Shown: one piece after another, positions 1,296 to 60,005 of the stretch | Position numbering within the stretch: position 1 is the first letter of the stretch | Layout of the letters: each line of letters opens with the position of its first letter | Assembly: GCA_026874595.1 (NCBI GenBank) | Contig: CM049306.1 | Coordinates: 100,826,642 to 100,890,641, forward strand | Length of the DNA stretch: 64,000 nucleotides | Source: Sipunculus nudus | Taxonomy: Eukaryota; Annelida; Sipuncula; Golfingiida; Sipunculidae | Direction of reading: 5' to 3' | Translations under genes and position numbers: made by a program | Notes under the pieces: generated by a model | Database searches by the model: none | Seen by the model: the letters and a program-made list of their open reading frames with translations, nothing else | Told to the model about the DNA's origin: nothing

Positions 1296-4200
1296 ATTTT
1301 AACATACAACATATTTACTATGCTATGCTTCAGCTTGATTTTAAATAGATAATCAGACCAGTTGATTTTAATTGTCAAAATCTATCTAATCAAGACTTCC
1401 AAAATCTGGATGTTCTTTGTGCCTTTAGCTCCCCCCCCCCCCCCCCCCCCGTGCACAAACACTTATTTATAGCGTTTGGTGGGGAAGATCAAAGGCTGTG
1501 TTTTTATGTCATGTAATTACACAGTTTTGTATATTTCTGTGAATATGAATCCCATTAGTCACTCTCTTGTTTTTACAGGATTTGTCCCCAGGCTTCAACC
1601 ATTTATATGACATCTGATGTCCAACGCGGGAGTTCCGAGTAACCTATGACTTGCTGCGTAAAGATTTTCAAAGTAATTCATAATCTAAGTCCAGTGTATT
1701 TTAAACAGTACTTCACTACACCTATTTCTGGCTGTGTCACTAGACTAGCTAGCTATGGACCGGCAGTGCTGGTTACAAATAGAGTTTCGGATGGAACCCA
1801 CTAGCTAAAACATTTTACTATGCTATGGAATCCTCTTCTGATAGACTAAAAAAATCAAGAGTCCCTTAGAGCATTCAAAATAAAGTTATCGTACTGTAAA
1901 GGGGTATCCTGCGGTTGTTATCTGCGTAATACTTAATATCACTCTGTAAAAATTGACATCCTTCTTTGGGCCGTATGCCATTTCCAATTTGTTTTGTCAC
2001 TTCATGCCTTATTGTGATTTTTTTTTCAAGACTTGTGATACTTATTTTTATGTAAGTTAATGTATTTTTATTATTATTTATAGTATTTTAAATTATTTAA
2101 TTTTAATTAATGTATGATAAGAGTGTTGTCGGTCATAATAGCCTATGGTTAATGTTGTCTTTGTTTGTAAAAACCAACATAAAATAAAATATTTGTATTA
2201 TAACTAATTGTCAGTATCATTCTCCTATTATCGCTCACATGTGCCTGCTTGTCATTAAAGTACTGATGTGCATGCGTATATACATTTATTAACAAGTCTT
2301 AAAAGCCAAAGCAACAAATATACAGTGCATTTAAATTTATAAATCGTCATGGTTATATTTAAAGTTAGAGATATATCCCTATGCATTACCAATCAATCGA
2401 TACGACCAATACAGCATGCAACGCATTTCGATTATCGTACCGACGTCGTGTATGGATTCGTATCGATATATCGATATACTGACACAGCCCTAATTATTAC
2501 TACTAAAATAATACTACTAGGCCTACTTCTACAGCTACTAATAACAATCAGCAATAACAATAATGTTGTATCAAGTATCAAAGTGGTCAAGTTTACCGCC
2601 AATTAATGTTTTTACCCTACAGAGTCGGAGCCACCCTCTACCAGTGTCGCTGACTGTTAACACATCTGTGACTGACAGGATAAAGAGAATAACGGTATGT
2701 AAACGATATCACGTAAATAAGTGAGATCGTCATAATAACGGTATGATAATGATATCACGTTAATATGAAGGATATCTATAATACGGGTATGTTAATGATA
2801 CCATGTAAATATAAGGGATCGTCATAATAACGGTATGTTAATGATATCACGTAAATAAGTGGGATCGTCATAATAACGGTATGATAATGATATCACGTAA
2901 ATATGAAGGATATCTATAATACGGGTATGTTAATGATATCACGTAAATATAAGGGATCGTCATAATAACGGTATGTTAATTATATCACATAAATAATTGG
3001 GATCGTTATAATAACGGTATATTAATGATATCACGTAAATAAGCGGGATCGTCATAATAACGGTATGTTATTGATATCGCGTGAATGTGAGGGATCATAC
3101 TTTTAACGGTATGTTAATGATATCACATAAATATAAGGGTTCTTCATAATAACAGTATGTTAATGATATCACGTAAATATGAGGGATCGTCATAATGACG
3201 GTATGTTAATGATATCACGTAAATATGAGGGATCGTCATAATAACGGTATGTTAATGATATCACGTAAATAAGAGGGTTCCTTATACTAACGGTATGTTA
3301 ATGATATCACGTAAATAAGTGGGATCGTCATAATGACGGTATGTTAATGATATCACGTAAATATGAAGGATATCTTTAACACGGGTATGTTAATGATATC
3401 ACGTAAATATAAGGGATCGTCATAATAACGGTATGTTAATTATATCACATAAATAATTGGGATCGTTATAATAACGGTATATTAATGATATCACGTAAAT
3501 AAGCGGGATCGTCATAGTAACGTTATGTTATTGATATCGCGTAAATATGAGGGATCATCATTTTAACGGTATGTTAATGATATCACATAAATATAAGGGT
3601 TCTTCATAATAATAGTATGTTAATGATATCACGTAAATATGAGGGATCGTCATAATGACGGTATGTTAATGATATCACGTACATATGAGGGATCGTCATA
3701 ATAACGGTATGTTAATGATATCCCGTAAATAAGAGGGTTCCTTATACTAACGGTATGTTAATGATATCACGTAAACATGAGGGATCGTCATAATGACGGT
3801 ATGTTAATGATATCACATTAATATGAGGATCTTCATAATAACAGTATGCTAATGATATCACGTAAATAAGAGGGTTCCTTATACTAACGGTATGTTAATG
3901 AAATCATGTAAATAGGACGGATCGTCATAATAACAGTATGATAATGATATCACGTTAATAGGACGGATCGTCATAATTACGGTATAATGACATGAACGGC
4001 GATGTACCTTTTATTATACTGGAATAAACTTCTACTGGTAGCAGTTGGAATGTTGGCATCGTACCTATAATTGATTCACTGGTATTCCTGTCAATTTGGA
4101 TGACAAGACAGTTAAACTCATTTTAATAATCAATTTATTGTCATAAAAGTATAATCAAAATACCTCTTGTCGCGACTGGAATTGCATATTTGATGTACGT

Positions 4201-4671
4201 TATGGTTATGTAAAAAACAGCGATTGGGAAGTAAATCCAATTTTATCAAACGTATAACTTTATAAAACTTAATGTTTAAATGTTTATCTTGTTTTACAGA
4301 GTTGTGGGGTAATTAGGAAGGCCTTGCACCAGGCATCAAAACACAGGATTGGTCTTCTACTTCAGATAATGACAAACGAACAAAGACACCATCTGGTAAG
4401 GATCAACGAATCCCGGATTAACCCAAAAACAACCGTTCTGGATAACATGGAACAAGCCGAAGAGGCATTCTGTAGAATATGGTCGATTCTTCAGAACCTG
4501 CGAAAGTCTTGTCGAACCAAATACACAAAGCGGAAATGCCGGAGAAGCAATGCATCATGGTTAAAGCGAAACGTGTGCATGGAGACATACCATGGCAACA
4601 CCGGACGTAATCATAAATTCATCAAAATGATAAAACGTTGGTTAGTTATTTTGAAACACATAACGCCCTGA
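795..4671 (+). CDS. Secreted N-glycosylated cysteine-containing protein, family unknown
   Basis: Three coding exons fit together: 795-1073, 2623-2694 and 4300-4671 (stop TGA). Donors are TAC|GTAAGT and ACG|GTATGT; acceptors are CCCTACAG and TTTTACAG. Both introns are phase 0 and the joined frame stays open for 240 residues. Residues about 14-30 form a hydrophobic signal-peptide-like stretch ending near VSAG before a Cys-rich start (CHPLC). The mature part has nine Cys (four in exon 1, five in exon 3) and six N-X-S/T sequons (NDT, NIS, NDT, NTS, NES, NAS), which supports secretion. The rest looks largely helical, with a basic KYTKRKCRR segment. The start is uncertain: TATATAAAA lies just inside the frame at 802-810 and an acceptor-like CAG ends at 840, so the signal peptide may come from an unseen exon. 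A polyadenylation signal AATAAA lies at 4819-4824. Function is not recognised. Confidence 0.6.
1244..1291. repeat. (TA)n microsatellite
   Basis: Uninterrupted alternating TA over about 48 bp, within the hAT-like insertion. The Ile-Tyr frame it generates is meaningless. Confidence 0.95.
1431..1450. repeat. Poly-C run (20)
   Basis: Twenty consecutive C, one of many long G/C homopolymers in the window. Confidence 0.95.
1579..1617 (+). other. Possible alternative 3' terminal exon of the first gene
   Basis: A TTTTTACAG acceptor is followed, in the phase-0 frame of exon 1, by twelve codons (DLSPGFNHLYDI) and TGA at 1615-1617. Joining exon 1 to it would give a 105-residue short isoform that lacks the C-terminal helical part. 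AATAAA signals follow near 1879 and 2184. The exon lies inside the hAT-like insertion at 1117-2492, so it would be an exonised transposon segment. The splice join is inference. Confidence 0.35.
2688..3990. repeat. 46-bp minisatellite in intron 2 of the first gene
   Basis: About 28 tandem units of 46 bp, each carrying AATAACGGTATGTTAATGA followed by TATCACGTAAATA and GGGATCGTCAT. Units are grouped: the segment around 2991-3280 recurs 460 bp (10 units) further on, for example AAATAATTGG at 2991 and 3451, and AAGAGGGTTC at 3271 and 3731. The array begins at the exon 2/intron boundary, and each unit repeats the AATAACG|GTATGT splice-donor context of exon 2. Confidence 0.95.
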
Positions 4672-6180: not shown

Positions 6181-7882
6181 ATGCCCCCGCCACAAAGTGG
6201 CCGGGGCATATAGTTTTACCCATGTCCGTCATTCAGTCATTCCGTCATTCCGAAATCAAACAGTTGTACGGACTTTTTTTCGCAGTGCCTGCAGATATTG
6301 GCCTGATTTATGGTGTGTGGGCAGATAATGACCAGTTACAGATCGAGTTCGCGTTTCGTCCCCGTTGACCTACTTTTGACCGTTTTACGGCTCCTAAACT
6401 TAGAAAATTTCATGAAAAATAGAAATTTTCATGACAAATACACATGTACGGACTTTTTTTCGCAATGCCTGCAGATATTGGCCTGATTTTTGGTGTGTGG
6501 GCAGATAATGACCAGTTACAGATCGAGTTCGCGTTTCGTCCTGGTTGACCTACTTTTGACCGTTTTACGGCTCCTAAACTTAGAAAATTTCATGAAAAAT
6601 AGAAATTTTCATGACAAATACACATGTACGGACTTTTTTTCGCAATGCCTGCAGATATTGGCCTGATTTTTGGTGTGTGGACAGATAATGACCAGTTACA
6701 GATCAAGTTCGCGTTTCGTCCCGGTTGACCTACTTTTGACCGTTTTACGGCTCCTAAACTTAGAAATATTCATGAAAAATAGAAAGTTTCATGACAAATA
6801 CACATGTACAGCCATTTTTAGCTCTCAGCTCTTAGGCTGATGGGCTATTTTCGTCACCCAAGCTGTCCGTCTGTCCATCTGTCTGTCCGGTGTCTGTCCG
6901 TCCGTCCGTCCGTTCCGCGTCTGTTAACTTTTACCTTGTGAGCGGGATATCTCTAAAAGGATTCATTGTTGGAATTTTATTTCATCAGTGAAGATGTATA
7001 TTGATAAAATCTCGGTCAAGTTCGAAGATGGGTGACCTTGACCCATTTTTCTACATTTTATAGCTGATTATAGAAAAACACTCAGAAGTTTATATCTCAG
7101 GAACCATTGTGTGGATTTTCACAAAACTTACTATGATCATTGGGACTTATGGTCTGTATGTGCTGCACAATTTTGGTGGCGCCACCTGCAATTTCTGATT
7201 TTTTAATGAAATTTTATCGGATTTTTTCAATTTTGGCCTTTTGTGCAGGATATCTCCAAAGGTATTCAACACAGGAACTTCATTTCTTCAGTGCTATTGC
7301 ATTATATTTACAAAATCTTGGTCAAGTTCAAAGATGGGTGATCTTGACCTACTTTTCAAGGTCACAGAGCTTAGTATAGAAAAAAACTTAGGAGCTTATT
7401 TCTCAGGAAGCATTTGGTGGATTGTTATGAAACATGGTATATGCCTCTCCAATTTAAATTTATAAATGATTATCAACTTTTGCTAATATTCTAGTTTTGC
7501 AATACAATGCTTACAGATACTGGCCTAATGTTAGATCTGTGGGCGCATAATGACCACTTACAGATCGAGTTCGCGTTTCGTCCCAGTTAACCTATTTTTC
7601 ACCATATGACAGATCCTGAACATAGAAAATTTCATGAAAGACAGAAATTTTCATGAAAAATGCACATATATGGACTTTTTTTCACAATGCCTGCAGATAC
7701 TGGCCTGATTTTTGGTGTGTTGCTTGATAATGACCCTTTACAGATCGAGTTTGCATTTTGCCCTAGTTGACCTACTCTTGACCATACAACACTTCCTGAA
7801 CTTAAAAAATTTTACAAAATTTAACAAATGTTTCTAAATTGCACCAGGCGGGGGCATTCGTGTCGTTCCGACACATCTAGTT
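6181..7882. mobile_element. Composite repeat with ATGCCCCCGCC/GGCGGGGGCAT ends
   Basis: Begins ATGCCCCCGCC (6181) and ends with its exact inverse GGCGGGGGCAT (7848-7858) plus TCGTGTCGTTCCGACACATC. Inside are three near-perfect 180-bp units, a different block at about 6810-7490 starting with GTCCGTCTGTCC-type motifs, then two diverged 180-bp units. I recall such GGCGGGGGCATTCGTGTC ends from mollusc repeats. No transposase was seen. The middle block looks like a nested insertion; it contains GGTGGCGCCACC, also common in the repeat at 34.6-35.4 kb. Confidence 0.7.
6266..6805. repeat. 180-bp tandem repeat, three copies
   Basis: GTACGGACTTTTTTTCG recurs at 6266, 6446 and 6626, and the copies are almost identical. 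Diverged copies without this precise start lie at about 7500-7660 and 7670-7840. Confidence 0.95.
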
Positions 7883-13100: not shown

Positions 13101-16100
13101 ATAGTTTCATGGCTGTTATTTGATATTACCTTAATAGTAAGGAACAGAGTGAATACAGTTCTTTTTGTTAAAACCTTCCGTGAAACCTTAAAAATTACAC
13201 AGCAGACGGATTCAGTTCAAAATGCCAGATACATACAAAAATATATCAAAACAATATATCAAAATAATAATAGTAATTTTAATTATAATTATTACAATAT
13301 ATTTAAATATTAATATAAACTTTATATTCATATAAACTACAATATAATGTACGTGCTAAAAAAATAATAATAAAAAAATAGAACGACAGGAGATATAAAA
13401 TGGAAACTTGTATGCTCTTTGGACATGTACCTATGCACTCGTTGACCCCGAGGAAACATATTTCCAACAACTGTTTCTTCTTTTCTGCAGCCCGGCGGTA
13501 CCTTGCTCTGTCAGTTGCAGAGTGATTTTCCCCAGCCATAGTTCTGTAAAAAAAAATAAAATATTTAAGTTAGGGATAAATAGGGCGATCACAACGCGAA
13601 ACCCGTTCAGCAGGCTTAATAGGAAAGTTGTGTGCCACGGCTGTATATCACAAACGAGTGCGTCTTTGGGACGTTCCTCAGGAATAGGGGGGGGGGGAGG
13701 GGGGGGGGGGGGGGTTACACACCCAGGTCCACCAGAAGACAGAAGACACCGGGCCTAGGTGAAACTAGAATATAAAATATGTGGAAAGAAGCGAGTGCTA
13801 ACGCCCTGTCATGTACTCCCAAATTGAAATGGAGTTCACCCTGCGGATGAACATACTTAGATTAAGAATTTGAAAAGTCAAAAAATGGAGAAAAAAAGAA
13901 TTGTCCTTACTTCATAAGTTCTTCAGCATTTTGTTCCTCTGCCGACTGCTCCTTTGGTTCCTTTGCGTGTCCATTCTCCAATATGTTGATCTCTTGGTGG
14001 AATAATTTCGGATACTGTGAACGATGTTGTAAGGGGTCCATGACGACCTTGACCTCACCGCTGTAAAAGAAAACAAGTAACGCTGTCTCAATGACCCAGT
14101 AGCTGGACAGCTTGGCAGGTATTATCCCGTATTTAATTTCAAATATGGTCTTTAACCCATTTTATAAAATAAAATGCTTATTAATGGGCGTTCAGTAATA
14201 TAATGGGCAATGCGACGCCCTTTTTTACACTATGATAAATAAAATATAATTGTAATATTAAGGGCGAATATTATCCTGTGTGTATTTTTGTACTGCTCGC
14301 AAATTAAAAAAAATAAATTTGCTTCAAATTTATTTTCATTTCTAGTTCATCATTAATAGTCCCGGTTGAAATAAATGTTCCCAAATTGTTACTTCTTGGA
14401 AATTTTATCAGTTTCGTCAATAATACATTATTTTATTCACCAACCTGATAATGAAATACATAGCGCTCACAGGTTCCCCCTGACGAGTCAAACATCCATC
14501 ATAGGCAATCGAATCCTTCTGCAGTGCCATGGTTAACTGCTTCTTGTATTTGGGTGACCAGGATTTGAAGAAAGGGTTACTCGACACAAAGTTCGACTTA
14601 TCTTCAAATTCTTTTTGTAGCACGGTTTTCACTGATCGGTTATACAACTCTCTGTCCACAATTATAAGGTCTGAAATCTCGTCCGTAATTATGGAAGCGG
14701 TTCGGATACAGTCTTCACTCAGCAGGGCAACTTCACCAAACGTGGCACCCTGGCCTGTTCAGAAGAAAGCAGCAGAAATTCAGACACAGGTCTGATTATT
14801 ATTTTATACAACTTTTCCTTAATGTGACCGTGTGTGTTTTATGTATAATATACTTCTCAAAATGTTCAGACTAGATCTCTGTGTTTCATTACACATCACT
14901 ACAATTGTGGACTTTTTTTAAAGTGCCTCCTGAACAAGTGGACTTGGAAAAATGAGGGCAGGAATCTCAAGGATCATATAAAATATTATCAAAAAATATA
15001 TATATAAATACTGTAGGCCACCTGGGTACTTCTGGGCCTATTTTTACTGTCCTGCTGAAGCTTAAGCTAAGAAACGAATTTTTAGTTTTTTTGTATAATT
15101 ATTCTTATATTTTCACGATGTTTTAATGATTTTACTCTAAGTATTTCTTAAACAGCCAATAGGAAGAATAATTATATACTTATCTTTAGTTCTGATTCTT
15201 TCGTTTGGCCGAACTTAGTAATAAATAGTAAAGAAATTGTTCGCATCAAGTATAAGCACAGTTTGTGACCCTTCACTAACACACCTTCAACGTCAATTAT
15301 ATTCATTTTACTTCACTTTGTGTTTTATGAGTCGGAAAGCGAGGAATTTAATACTCAATTACGATAGATATTATTTACATGATTGGTGAGGCATACACAT
15401 CAAAGTACCCCGCATATAGCAAACCGTGCTGAAGCAAATCCACACACAGCATAGGTGATTCAATAGCAAAAAGCAATGAACATTTAAGGAATTTTTTTTT
15501 GTATTTCGGACCCGCCATAAAATAAAGTTTCCTCGATGTAATTTTTTTTCATCAGCCCCAGTCAGCCGATTTTAAAAATATAACAAAACGTTAAACATCC
15601 ATTTACTTAACCATGGGCTTGTCCACAAAAAAATGGGAAATAGAACACGCGTAATACCCGATTCCATACCCCTCCCCCTTTCGCGCCTGCTTGGCCTGTG
15701 AGGTTTCGTGGTCTCTCTTTATGAATATCCTGACATTCTAATATAAATCCACGATCCACTTTTATCACTGCGGAAATTATTTTGGTGCAAAATCCTGGAA
15801 TTGTTCCCTGGCTTGATTAAAGGATCCAGTCGGTGGTAGTAATACCTGATGATAGTAATTTTATCTATATCTAAAACTATAATTTATCACCTCAGGATAT
15901 AAAATACCACGCCTTTCTCTGTGTTAAGCTTTGTATGCTTTGTGAAACAGACTGTACCCAACCACTGTAAGATCAGTGGACGTATATGCAATGTAAAGTA
16001 GATCATCTGCTGTGTTCAGGATGCGCCCGACTACCCTCCCCCCCCCCCCCCGACATTTTGTATCCCGTGCCGTTCTCTAATAGGTCTAGCTATACAGAAC

Positions 16101-31962: not shown

Positions 31963-34139
31963 CAGTAGTAGTAGAAGTAGTAGAATTAGGACCAGTAGCA
32001 ATAGTAGGAGTAGTAGGAACATTAGCAGAGTCATAGTGTGTTGGACTTGTTGCAGTTGTAATAGTAATAGGAAGAAGCAAGGCAGGAGTAGCAGTGGAAA
32101 TAGCGAATATTGCAGCAGTAGGAGAAGTAGTTTGGTAGCATCCCTGTGGCAGTTGAGTAACAAAAGAAGTTGAGTAACAGAAGAAGAAGGATTAATAGGG
32201 TTGAAGGAGTAGTAGTAGAGGTAGTAGCTAGCAGCAGTGGAAGAAGTATAGTTGAAGTAAAAGTAACATAGTAGGAGTAACAATAGTAGTAGGATTAGTA
32301 GAAGTCGAAGGAGTAACAACAGTAGTAGGATTAGAAGAAGTAGAAGGAGTAACAACAGTAGTAGGATCAGTAGAAGTAGAAGGAGTAACAACAGTAGTAG
32401 GATCAGTAGAAGCAGAAGGAGTAACAACAGTAGTAGGATCAGTAGAAGCAGAAGGAGTAACAAGAGTGTAGGATCAGTAGAAGTAGAAGGAGTGACAACA
32501 GTAGTAGGATCAGTAGAAGTAGAAGGGTTAACAACAGTAGTAGGATCAGTAGAAGTAGAAGGAGTAACAACAGTAGTAGGATCAGTAGAAGTCGAAGGAG
32601 TAACAACAGTAGTAGGATCAGTAGAAGTAGAAGGAGTAAAAACAGTAGTAGGATCAGGAGAAGTAGAAGGAGTAACAACAGTAGTAGGATCAGGAGAAGT
32701 AGAAGGAGTAACAACAGTAGTAGGATCAGTAGAAGTAGAAGGAGTAACAACAGTAGTAGGATCAGGAGAAGTAGAAGGAGTAACAACAGTAGTAGGATCA
32801 GTAGAAGTAGAAGGAGTAAAAACAGTAGTAGGATCAGTAGAAGCAGAAAGAGTAACAACAGTAGTAGGATCAGTAGAAGTAGAAGGGTTAACAACAGTAG
32901 TAGGATCAGTAGAAGTAGAAGGAGTAACAACAGTAGTAGGATCAGTAGAAGTCGAAGGAGTAACAACAGTAGTAGGATCAGTAGAAGTAGAAGGAGTAAA
33001 AACAGTAGTAGGATCAGGAGAAGTAGAAGGAGTAACAACAGTAGTAGGATCAGGAGAAGTAGAAGGAGTAACAACAGTAGTAGGATCAGTAGAAGTAGAA
33101 GGAGTAACAACAGTAGTAGGATCAGGAGAAGTAGAAGGAGTAACAACAGTAGTAGGATCAGTAGAAGTAGAAGGAGTAACAACAGTAGTAGGATCAGTAG
33201 AAGCAGAAAGAGTAACAACAGTAGTAGGATCAGTAGAAGCAGAAGGAGTAACAAGAGTAGTAGGATCAGTAGAAGCAGAAGGAGTAACAAGAGTAGTAGG
33301 ATCAGTAGAAGTAGAAGGAGTAACAAGAGTAGTAGGATCAGTAGAAGTAGAAGGAGTAAAAACAGTAGTATGATCAGTAGAAGTAGAAGGAGTAAAAACA
33401 GTAGTAGGATCAGGAGAAGTAGAAGGAGTAACAACAGTAGTAGGATCAGTAGAAGCAGAAGGAGTAACAAAAGTAGTAGGATCAGTAGAAGTAGAAGGAG
33501 TAACAACAGTAGTAGGATCAGTAGAAGCAGAAGGAGTAACAACAGTAGTAAGATTAGTAGAAGTAGAAGGAGTAACAAGAGTAGTAGGATCAGGAGAAGT
33601 AGAAGGAGTAACAACAGTAGTAGGATCAGTAGAAGTAGAAGGAGTAACAACAGTAGTAGGATCAGTAGAAGCAGAAGGAGTAACAAGAGTAGTAGGATCA
33701 GTAGAAGCAGTAGGAGTAACAAGAGTAGTAGGATCAGTAGAAGTAGAAGGAGTAAAAACAGTAGTAGGATCAGTAGAAGTAGAAGGAGTAACAACAGTAG
33801 TAGGATCAGTAGAAGCAGAAGGAGTAACAAGAGTAGTAGGATCAGTAGAAGCAGTAGGAGTAACAAGAGTAGTAGGATCAGTAGAAGTAGAAGGAGTAAA
33901 AACAGTAGTAGGATCAGTAGAAGTAGAAGGAGTAAAAACAGTAGTAGGAGTAGCAGAAATAGATGGAGTAGTTGAAGTAGGAGTAGCAGCAGTAGAAGGT
34001 CAAACAACAGTAACAGGTGAAGCAGACGTTTGAGTAGTCGAAGTAAGAGCAGAAGGAGTAACAACAGTAATAGCCGTAGTAACACTTGAAGTAGTAGCCG
34101 TAGGACTATCAGCAGTAGGATGAGTCGTAGGTGCAAAAA
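31903..34139 (-). pseudogene. Mucin-like PTS-repeat frame on the minus strand (broken or non-coding)
   Basis: One minus-strand frame of the 36-bp array translates to VVTPSTSTDPTT repeats, preceded by non-repetitive Thr/Ser/Pro-rich sequence (APTTHPTADSPTATTSS) after a CATTTCAG acceptor near 34139. This is the composition of an O-glycosylated mucin domain, and repeat variants change mostly among T, P, A and S. The frame is interrupted by TGA at 34000-34002 and shifted by a 2-nt loss near 32469, after which it reads Leu. It may be a decayed mucin exon or a minisatellite with a fortuitous open frame. Other frames (poly-Leu on minus; TTVVGSVEVEGV on plus) are less plausible proteins. Confidence 0.3.
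32283..33955. repeat. 36-bp minisatellite, ~46 copies
   Basis: The unit GTAGGATCAGTAGAAGTAGA plus AGGAGTAACAACAGTA is repeated in tandem. A 10-unit block is duplicated at a 360-bp offset (AGAAGGGTTAACAACAG at 32521 and 32881; GTCGAAGG at 32591 and 32951). Degenerate AGT/GTA-rich sequence flanks both ends. Confidence 0.97.
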
Positions 34140-57946: not shown

Positions 57947-58789
57947 TAATTTTACCCCAACCGGTTGGTAAGGGAGTGGAATTAATTATTTTTAACTATA
58001 TCCATAAAAGCATGAGGTTTTTGAATCCGTTGGTCAATTTTCAAAAAATAATAAATTATTATATAAATATAACATGTCTGTTATCGGTACTAGGTGCAAG
58101 AGCAAGAAAGGGGGTGGGGTTGTGTGGGTAGGGGGGAGTGGAGGTAGGGGTATGATATAATTTTCTCCTAAGATTACCCTCCAATCATTTACCACACTGC
58201 GCAGTATCGGACTCACAGGAGTACGACTCTGCTGTCCATGGTTTGCCGGCTTTGGGATCGGGCTTTATACAGATTAAATACTTAGTTCACTGAATACCAC
58301 GTCTACATAAATAGAGACACAAAAATAAAAGATTATACACACAATAATTCAGGGAGCATGATAAAGACAAAACCAGACAAACAGGTGCGACATCTGTTGG
58401 GGGATTCATGCTGCGGGGTCTCTATTTTCTGAGGGTCTAAACCTCCAACCAAGATCACTGTCCCTCAAATTAACATTGATTACGTAAGGAGAGTATTTTC
58501 TGAATAAAATGATTAGACTTGGTACCAATTTCGAGATAACATTTAAACTGAAAACATTGTTACATTTATGAATATCAGACACATTCTGCAAACTGTATAT
58601 AATTAAAGGGGATACATCTGTGTAATCCAATCATCCCATAGAAAATTATAAAACAAGTCAAAAGCTTTAGGTGTTATGACGAGGTGAAATGATCAAATAC
58701 AAGAAACGCATTTAGACTTCGTATCGATACTCGGCAGTCATCAGATCTGTACAAAATGTTTCTGTTACAGGCCGTGTACATGTAGAGCT

Positions 58790-60005
58790 ATACCGGAGTC
58801 CGCGTTGTAATGGGACGCTTATTGAGTGGCTAGGAATGTGACGGCATTTGTGAGTCCGCGTTGTAATGACACGTTAATTTAGTAGCTACACATGTGACGG
58901 TATACCGGAGTCCGCGTTGTAATGAAACGCTTATTGAGTGGCTAGAAATGTGACGCTATACCCGAATCTGCGTTGTAATGACACTTTGAGCGGCTAGACA
59001 TGTGACGCTACACCCGAATCCGCGTTGTAATGACACTTTTATTGAGCGGCTAAAAATGTGACGCTAAACCTGAGTCCGCGTTGTAATGACACGTTTATTG
59101 AGTGGCTAGACATGTGACGCTATACCGAGTCCGCGATGTAATGACACTTTTATTGAGTGGCTAGACATATGACGGTATACCGGAGTCCGCGTTGTAATTA
59201 CACGCTTATTGAGTAGCTAAACTTGTGACGGTATGTGAGTCCGCGTTGTAATGACACTTTTATTGAGTAGCTAGAAATGTGACGCTATACCTGATTCCGC
59301 GTTGTAATGACACGTTTATTTAGTAGCTAGACATGTGACGCTACCTGAGTCCGCGTCGTAATTACATGCTTATTGAGTTGCTAGATATGTAACGGTATAT
59401 GTGAGTCCGCGTTGTAATGACACGTTTATTGAGTGGCTAAACATGTGACGCTATACCTGAGTTCGCGTTGTAATGACACGTTTATTGAGTAGCTAGACAT
59501 GTGGCGCTATACCCGAATCAGTGTTGTAATAACACGTTTATTGATTAGCTAGACATATGACGCTACCTGAGTCCGCGTTGTAATTACATGCTTATTGAGT
59601 AGCTAGACATGTGACGCTATACCCGAATCCGCGTTCTAATGACACATTTATTGATTAGTTAGACATGTGACGCTACCTGAGTCCGCGTTGTAACTACATG
59701 CTTATTGAGTAGCTAGATTTGTGACGGTATATGCGAGTCCGCGTTGTAATGACACGTTTATTGAGTGGCTAGACATGTAACGGTATGTGAGTCCGCGTTG
59801 TAGTGACACTTTTATAGAGTAGCGAGAAATGTGACTCTATACCTGATTCCGCGTTGTAATGACACGATTATTGAGTAGCTAGACATATGACGCTCCTTGA
59901 ATCCGCGTTGTAATAACATGCTTATTGAGTAGCTAGAAATGTGACGCTATACCCGTGTCCGCGTTGTAATGACACGTTTATTGAGTGGCCAGACATGTGA
60001 CCGTT
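58790..60005. repeat. ~55-bp minisatellite, about 22 copies
   Basis: The unit is GAGTCCGCGTTGTAATGACA followed by CGTTTATTGAGTAGCTAGAC and ATGTGACGCTATACC. The CGCGTTGTAAT core recurs every 52-58 bp from 58801 to 59960. Copies are diverged by point changes and small indels. Confidence 0.95.

Follow-up and report, generated by a model that had tools for sequence, protein, structure and literature searches.

Why would an intron open with an array of about 28 units that repeat its own 5' splice site, and does such a layout call for a selected function? The question is raised by a 46-bp minisatellite in a predicted three-exon gene of the sipunculan Sipunculus nudus (assembly GCA_026874595.1), located in a 64,000-nucleotide stretch of contig CM049306.1 (positions 100,826,642 to 100,890,641, forward strand), referred to here as the window. 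All coordinates are those of the window, and features lie on its plus strand unless stated otherwise. The array straddles the border of exon 2 and intron 2, and all but one of its later units keep the GT of the exon 2 donor. We conclude that it is probably a neutral minisatellite whose founding segment happened to span that donor, an origin for which no selected function is needed.

A minisatellite that begins inside predicted exon 2

Tandem Repeats Finder (TRF) placed the array at 2688-3985 (period 46, 28.2 copies, 83% matches, score 1750), which bears out an earlier interpretation of the letters alone (the sequence-only reading), according to which a 46-bp array of about 28 copies starts at the exon 2 donor. 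A wraparound alignment divided the array, which has a GC content of 31%, into 28 full units followed by a partial one of 11 bp, with only one one-base gap (unit 25) and zero insertions. Unit 1 (2688-2733) starts 7 bases within exon 2 (exon position -7), so the exon 2 donor AACG/GTATGT (the slash marks the splice border) is itself part of unit 1. The GT of this predicted authentic donor is at 2695-2696, and the exon ends AATAACG/GTATGT. At the other end of the array, the partial last unit AATTACGGTAT (3975-3985) is identical to the opening 11 bases at 10 of 11 positions. Within the array, a 10-unit block duplication extends over 2826-3791, where units 4-14 and units 14-24 differ at 17 of 506 aligned positions. 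Units ten apart differ by a mean of 4.11 bases, whereas the means for all other offsets between 1 and 20 are 5.87-8.3. Variant units arranged in such duplicated blocks are what an ordinary minisatellite growing through slippage and duplication of blocks would be expected to show.

The 46 bases upstream of 2688 aligned to the unit no better than shuffled sequence did (173 of 1000 shuffles aligned equally well or better), so the left edge of the array appears real; a decayed older unit within exon 2 was rejected on the same comparison. This edge, together with the 10/11 match between the two ends, fits slippage between short direct repeats. We infer that a 46-bp segment straddling the exon 2/intron 2 border was duplicated in tandem to give a locus-specific minisatellite. 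The founding duplication probably arose when short direct repeats at the two ends of the segment (AATAACGGTAT ... AATTACGGTAT) slipped against each other, and the array would then have been enlarged by block duplications inside the intron. The units would thus carry a donor-like site because the founder segment contained the donor.

The surrounding gene model is an ab initio prediction from one assembly. It consists of exon 1 (795-1073, 93 codons in an open frame, donor TAC/GTAAGT), exon 2 (2623-2694, 72 bp or 24 codons, both flanking introns in phase 0, acceptor CCCTACAG) and exon 3 with the stop codon (4300-4671, 123 codons). Joined, the three exons have GT/AG borders and remain open in phase 0 throughout, encoding 240 amino acids. 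The predicted protein had zero matches in Pfam and PDB sequence searches up to an expect value (E) of 10, and exons 1 and 3 searched singly in Pfam also gave no match (exon 1 up to E = 1). A search for paralogues in the window, 21 further genome stretches and stretch L001 (E up to 5) recovered only self matches and one chance-level match (E 2.9, in stretch L011). Exon 3 alone, modeled by AlphaFold2 without an alignment, formed helices at low confidence (mean predicted local distance difference test score 56.7, predicted template modeling score 0.43). Inspected by eye, the 240-residue protein has a hydrophobic, signal-peptide-like N-terminus encoded by exon 1, six N-glycosylation sequons and phase 0 introns, and in outline it resembles a helical cytokine, a likeness with no family match.

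Decoy donors and their predicted use

The donor-position GT is kept in 28 of the 29 units (28 full units plus the partial one), the exception being unit 19, which has TT. Among the 28 later units, 27 keep it at the same unit position (units 2-18 and 20-29, within 2741-3983), so that the multiplied donor described in the sequence-only reading stands, with a count of 27 decoys in place of about 28. That nearly every unit repeats the 12-mer AATAACGGTATG was an overstatement: exact copies occur in 9 of the 29 units, whereas GTATG is present in 25 and the 9-mer ACG/GTATGT in 16. The hexamer GGTATG is found 21 times in the array, compared with a mean of 0.39 and a maximum of 3 in 500 mononucleotide shuffles.

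Each unit was scored with a 9-mer donor matrix, a check that the sequence-only reading had proposed, and by computed pairing with the 5' end of U1; both the matrix and the U1 end are mammalian approximations rather than fits to this genome, in which the ranks of the units outweigh the values. Unit 1 scored 7.62, with three of the other 28 units higher (units 3, 6 and 16), 15 equal and 10 lower, and an off-register site at 3087 also exceeded it (8.02). The 9-mer score ignores position +7, and the A at +7 in unit 1 alone adds a U1 pair. Because of this pair, unit 1 (-7.1) out-pairs 25 of the other units, including the 15 tied with it on the 9-mer, and only units 3, 6 and 16 (-7.6) pair more strongly. 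Unit 1 is therefore a good but non-unique donor. Weakened donors were observed in 8 of 29 units, through loss of G at -1 (units 11, 21, 26 and 28), of G at +5 (units 8, 18 and 29) or of the GT (unit 19), some of these being copies of one mutational event.

Other splicing signals were also sought in the array. Recursive splicing sites are AG/GT ratchet points, and this mechanism was rejected for the array, where AGGT occurs 0 times (the array was the part of the intron scored). U12-type donors were likewise rejected, since the array lacks both ATATCCTT and GTATCCTT. Three copies of TACTAAC, which is the branch-point consensus of yeast, stand just before a decoy donor (3285-3291, 3745-3751 and 3882-3888).

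Use of a decoy was expected in the sequence-only reading to run soon into a stop codon, and conceptual translation agrees. An in-frame TGA at 2722-2724 sits in unit 1, and for this reason all 27 GT-keeping decoys would lead to the same product of 126 amino acids instead of 240; intron retention ends at the same codon. Skipping of exon 2 keeps the frame and gives 216 amino acids. The anatomy of the array, its block duplication and this common stop are established. The distance from the stop to the new junction is 16 nt for the unit 2 decoy and 62 nt for the unit 3 decoy, and under the usual mammalian rule for nonsense-mediated decay the unit 2 product may escape decay while those of later units would not. 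Splicing would be expected mainly at the unit 1 donor, given its in-frame exon end and U1 pairing above that of 25 of the 28 other units, and occasional splicing at unit 2 or later would yield a truncated or decayed product. Leaky or length-dependent splicing of the array is possible on this analysis.

The intact frame after skipping also bears on whether exon 2 is real. Exon 1 could join exon 3 directly, leaving the array as an ordinary intronic minisatellite, and the small size of exon 2 (72 bp) and the lack of a homologue in Pfam, PDB sequences or the local flanks would agree with this. Yet exon 2 has a pyrimidine-rich acceptor that ends TACAG and 24 open codons with phase 0 on both sides, and its donor beats that of exon 1 on the 9-mer (7.62 vs. 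5.49) with near-equal U1 pairing (-7.1 vs. -7.3). We consider an unreal exon 2 unlikely, while granting it some weight.

Chance or selection

A neutral minisatellite with a donor-spanning founder, which we favor, can be examined through the differences that accumulated among its units. Of the 17 differences in the block duplication, three fall in the donor 9-mer, where 3.3 were expected; there is no sign here of purifying selection on the decoys, the evidence for which is at most weak overall. When conservation is compared over all 28 full units, the window of nine donor columns (5-13) comes 21st of 46. The suggestion in the sequence-only reading that the array spread under strong donor choice would fit a neutral origin of this kind.

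The layout was also compared with what chance might supply. A 264-kb local sample, made up of the window and stretches L003-L022 (641 bases of L013 lie within the window), contained 12 distinct arrays with a period of at least 15, at least 5 copies and a length of at least 200 bp; TRF reported these as 15 rows, three of which were second periods of the same arrays. Minisatellites are thus common in this genome region. The consensus unit carries a donor site scoring at least 7.6 on either strand in 4 of the 12 arrays, including the exon 2 array, and such sites occupy 540 of 528,000 strand positions in the same DNA, an average of about 0.05 in every 46 single-strand bases. Chance alone would seldom place a donor-like site in any one 46-bp unit, but a founder that held a donor would supply it automatically. 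Extrapolation to the 1.43-Gb genome gives about 65,000 arrays. If 200,000 introns are assumed, chance would put about 90 array edges at most 10 bases to the exon side of a donor, an estimate that depends on a local sample and an assumed intron number and ignores selection against exon damage. All that this rough figure establishes is that the layout can be explained without selection for it.

Several points limit the case for a neutral history. Seventeen differences are a small sample, and the single genomic location of the array DNA given below comes from a lower-bound search. Furthermore, when the 46 windows are ordered by conservation over those 28 full units, the GTATG core (columns 8-12) comes second and columns 8-13 seventh. 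These high ranks are a weak hint of constraint, being uncorrected for the choice of window and drawn from related, non-independent units.

Such constraint would be expected if the array were a selected splicing rheostat, in which decoys divert part of the transcripts to a truncated or decayed product or U1 binding slows intron removal, and array length tunes expression of the secreted-looking protein. The second option of the sequence-only reading, regulation by U1 sequestration or length-dependent efficiency, would belong here, but the decoys show no clear excess of conservation and the length dependence is documented for ABCA7 and not for this gene. The 27 decoys, 18 units that equal or exceed unit 1 on the 9-mer, the one common stop and the rank of the GTATG core could all be read in this way, and in human ABCA7 a longer intronic array goes with more skipping of exon 19 and with reduced expression (PMC5954066). 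An isoform of ABCA7 retaining one repeat unit is described as constant across array lengths (PMC5954066), which speaks against such a rheostat, as do the near-expected share of differences in the donor 9-mer and the weakened donor in 8 of 29 units, even with some of the latter copied from one event. Selection of this kind is likewise unlikely, and its more specific form, a length-variable decoy array kept as a dial on a secreted, possibly immune-like invertebrate protein through regulated 126-residue or unproductive transcripts, seems to us quite improbable. Arrival of the array with a mobile element, the exon later recruiting the first unit as its donor, is very improbable: the array DNA was found at a single location in the 1.43-Gb genome, with no dispersed copies (counts are lower bounds, very common words having been skipped), three array units had no match in the window outside the array, and the rest of the intron (3986-4299) compared with the window matched only itself.

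Further repeats and one domain-like fragment were noted elsewhere in the window. Downstream of the gene, a 180-bp unit is present in three copies with 97% matches (6265-6809), and a 56-bp minisatellite covers 1.2 kb at 58789-60001 (TRF second period 110-bp). At 32269-33970, a 36-bp array of 47 copies is open on the minus strand within a 698-residue stop-to-stop frame whose TPSTSTDPTT-like repeats are possibly mucin-like coding, although other frames are open too. The minus strand at 14417-14758 holds a fragment similar to a cyclic nucleotide-binding domain (PF00027), with an E of 2.4e-05 and a score of 24.6 bits that does not reach the curated cut-off of 27.5.

Known arrays that span a splice donor

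The closest parallel is the variable number tandem repeat (VNTR) in intron 18 of human ABCA7, which has 23.7 copies of a 25-bp unit and whose first unit opens with the GT that serves as donor of exon 18 (PMC5954066). Retention of one unit through a cryptic donor one unit downstream causes a frameshift and premature stop there, at a level of 2 +/- 1%; longer arrays are accompanied by more exon 19 skipping and lower expression, the retained-unit isoform remaining unchanged (PMC5954066). By analogy, the length of the exon 2 array may influence exon skipping or expression. Both arrays adjoin an exon and hold the donor GT in their first unit. The ABCA7 unit is 25 bp and C-rich, and its gene is a known one for which transcripts and length variation have been measured, whereas the exon 2 unit is 46 bp in an array of 31% GC that starts 7 bases inside the exon and is known from sequence alone.

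The minisatellite of human IFI6 (6-16, G1P3) was reportedly described by Turri, Cuin and Porter in 1995 (Nucleic Acids Res 23:1854). Compared here through citing text, it is referred to as a source of multiple splice donor sites (PMC2572611, PMC4526556, PMC2915984, PMC3618361); one citing sentence states that two downstream repeat units serve as donors, giving three mRNA species (PMC4526556). Different isoforms are reported from the downstream units of IFI6, whereas the 27 downstream donors of the exon 2 array would lead to a single stop.

More distant cases share only part of this layout. The excerpts on a potato RdRp gene describe an intron gained by tandem genomic duplication (PMC4974935); exon-intron structure was altered by tandem duplication there as at exon 2, but in potato an intron was gained, whereas here an existing donor was multiplied within its own intron. 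Caenorhabditis elegans minisatellites tied to multiple splicing decisions concern intronic motifs, and the available excerpts do not mention the word 'donor' (PMC4039745). Literature on minisatellites and the U1 small nuclear ribonucleoprotein, and on minisatellite splicing in bivalve introns, offered nothing relevant in the excerpts retrieved.

With a donor in its first unit and donor-like later units, the array in this predicted gene is of the same kind as those of ABCA7 and IFI6, and the claim of the sequence-only reading that no such system had been described falls before these precedents. The exon 2 array is instead a new instance of a known layout, the donor-spanning minisatellite. It offers a further natural experiment, probably one outside mammals, on how the spliceosome chooses the first among near-identical donors, a question already posed by the ABCA7 and IFI6 arrays. 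Length alleles, if they exist, would allow the dependence of isoform ratio on decoy number to be tested cleanly.
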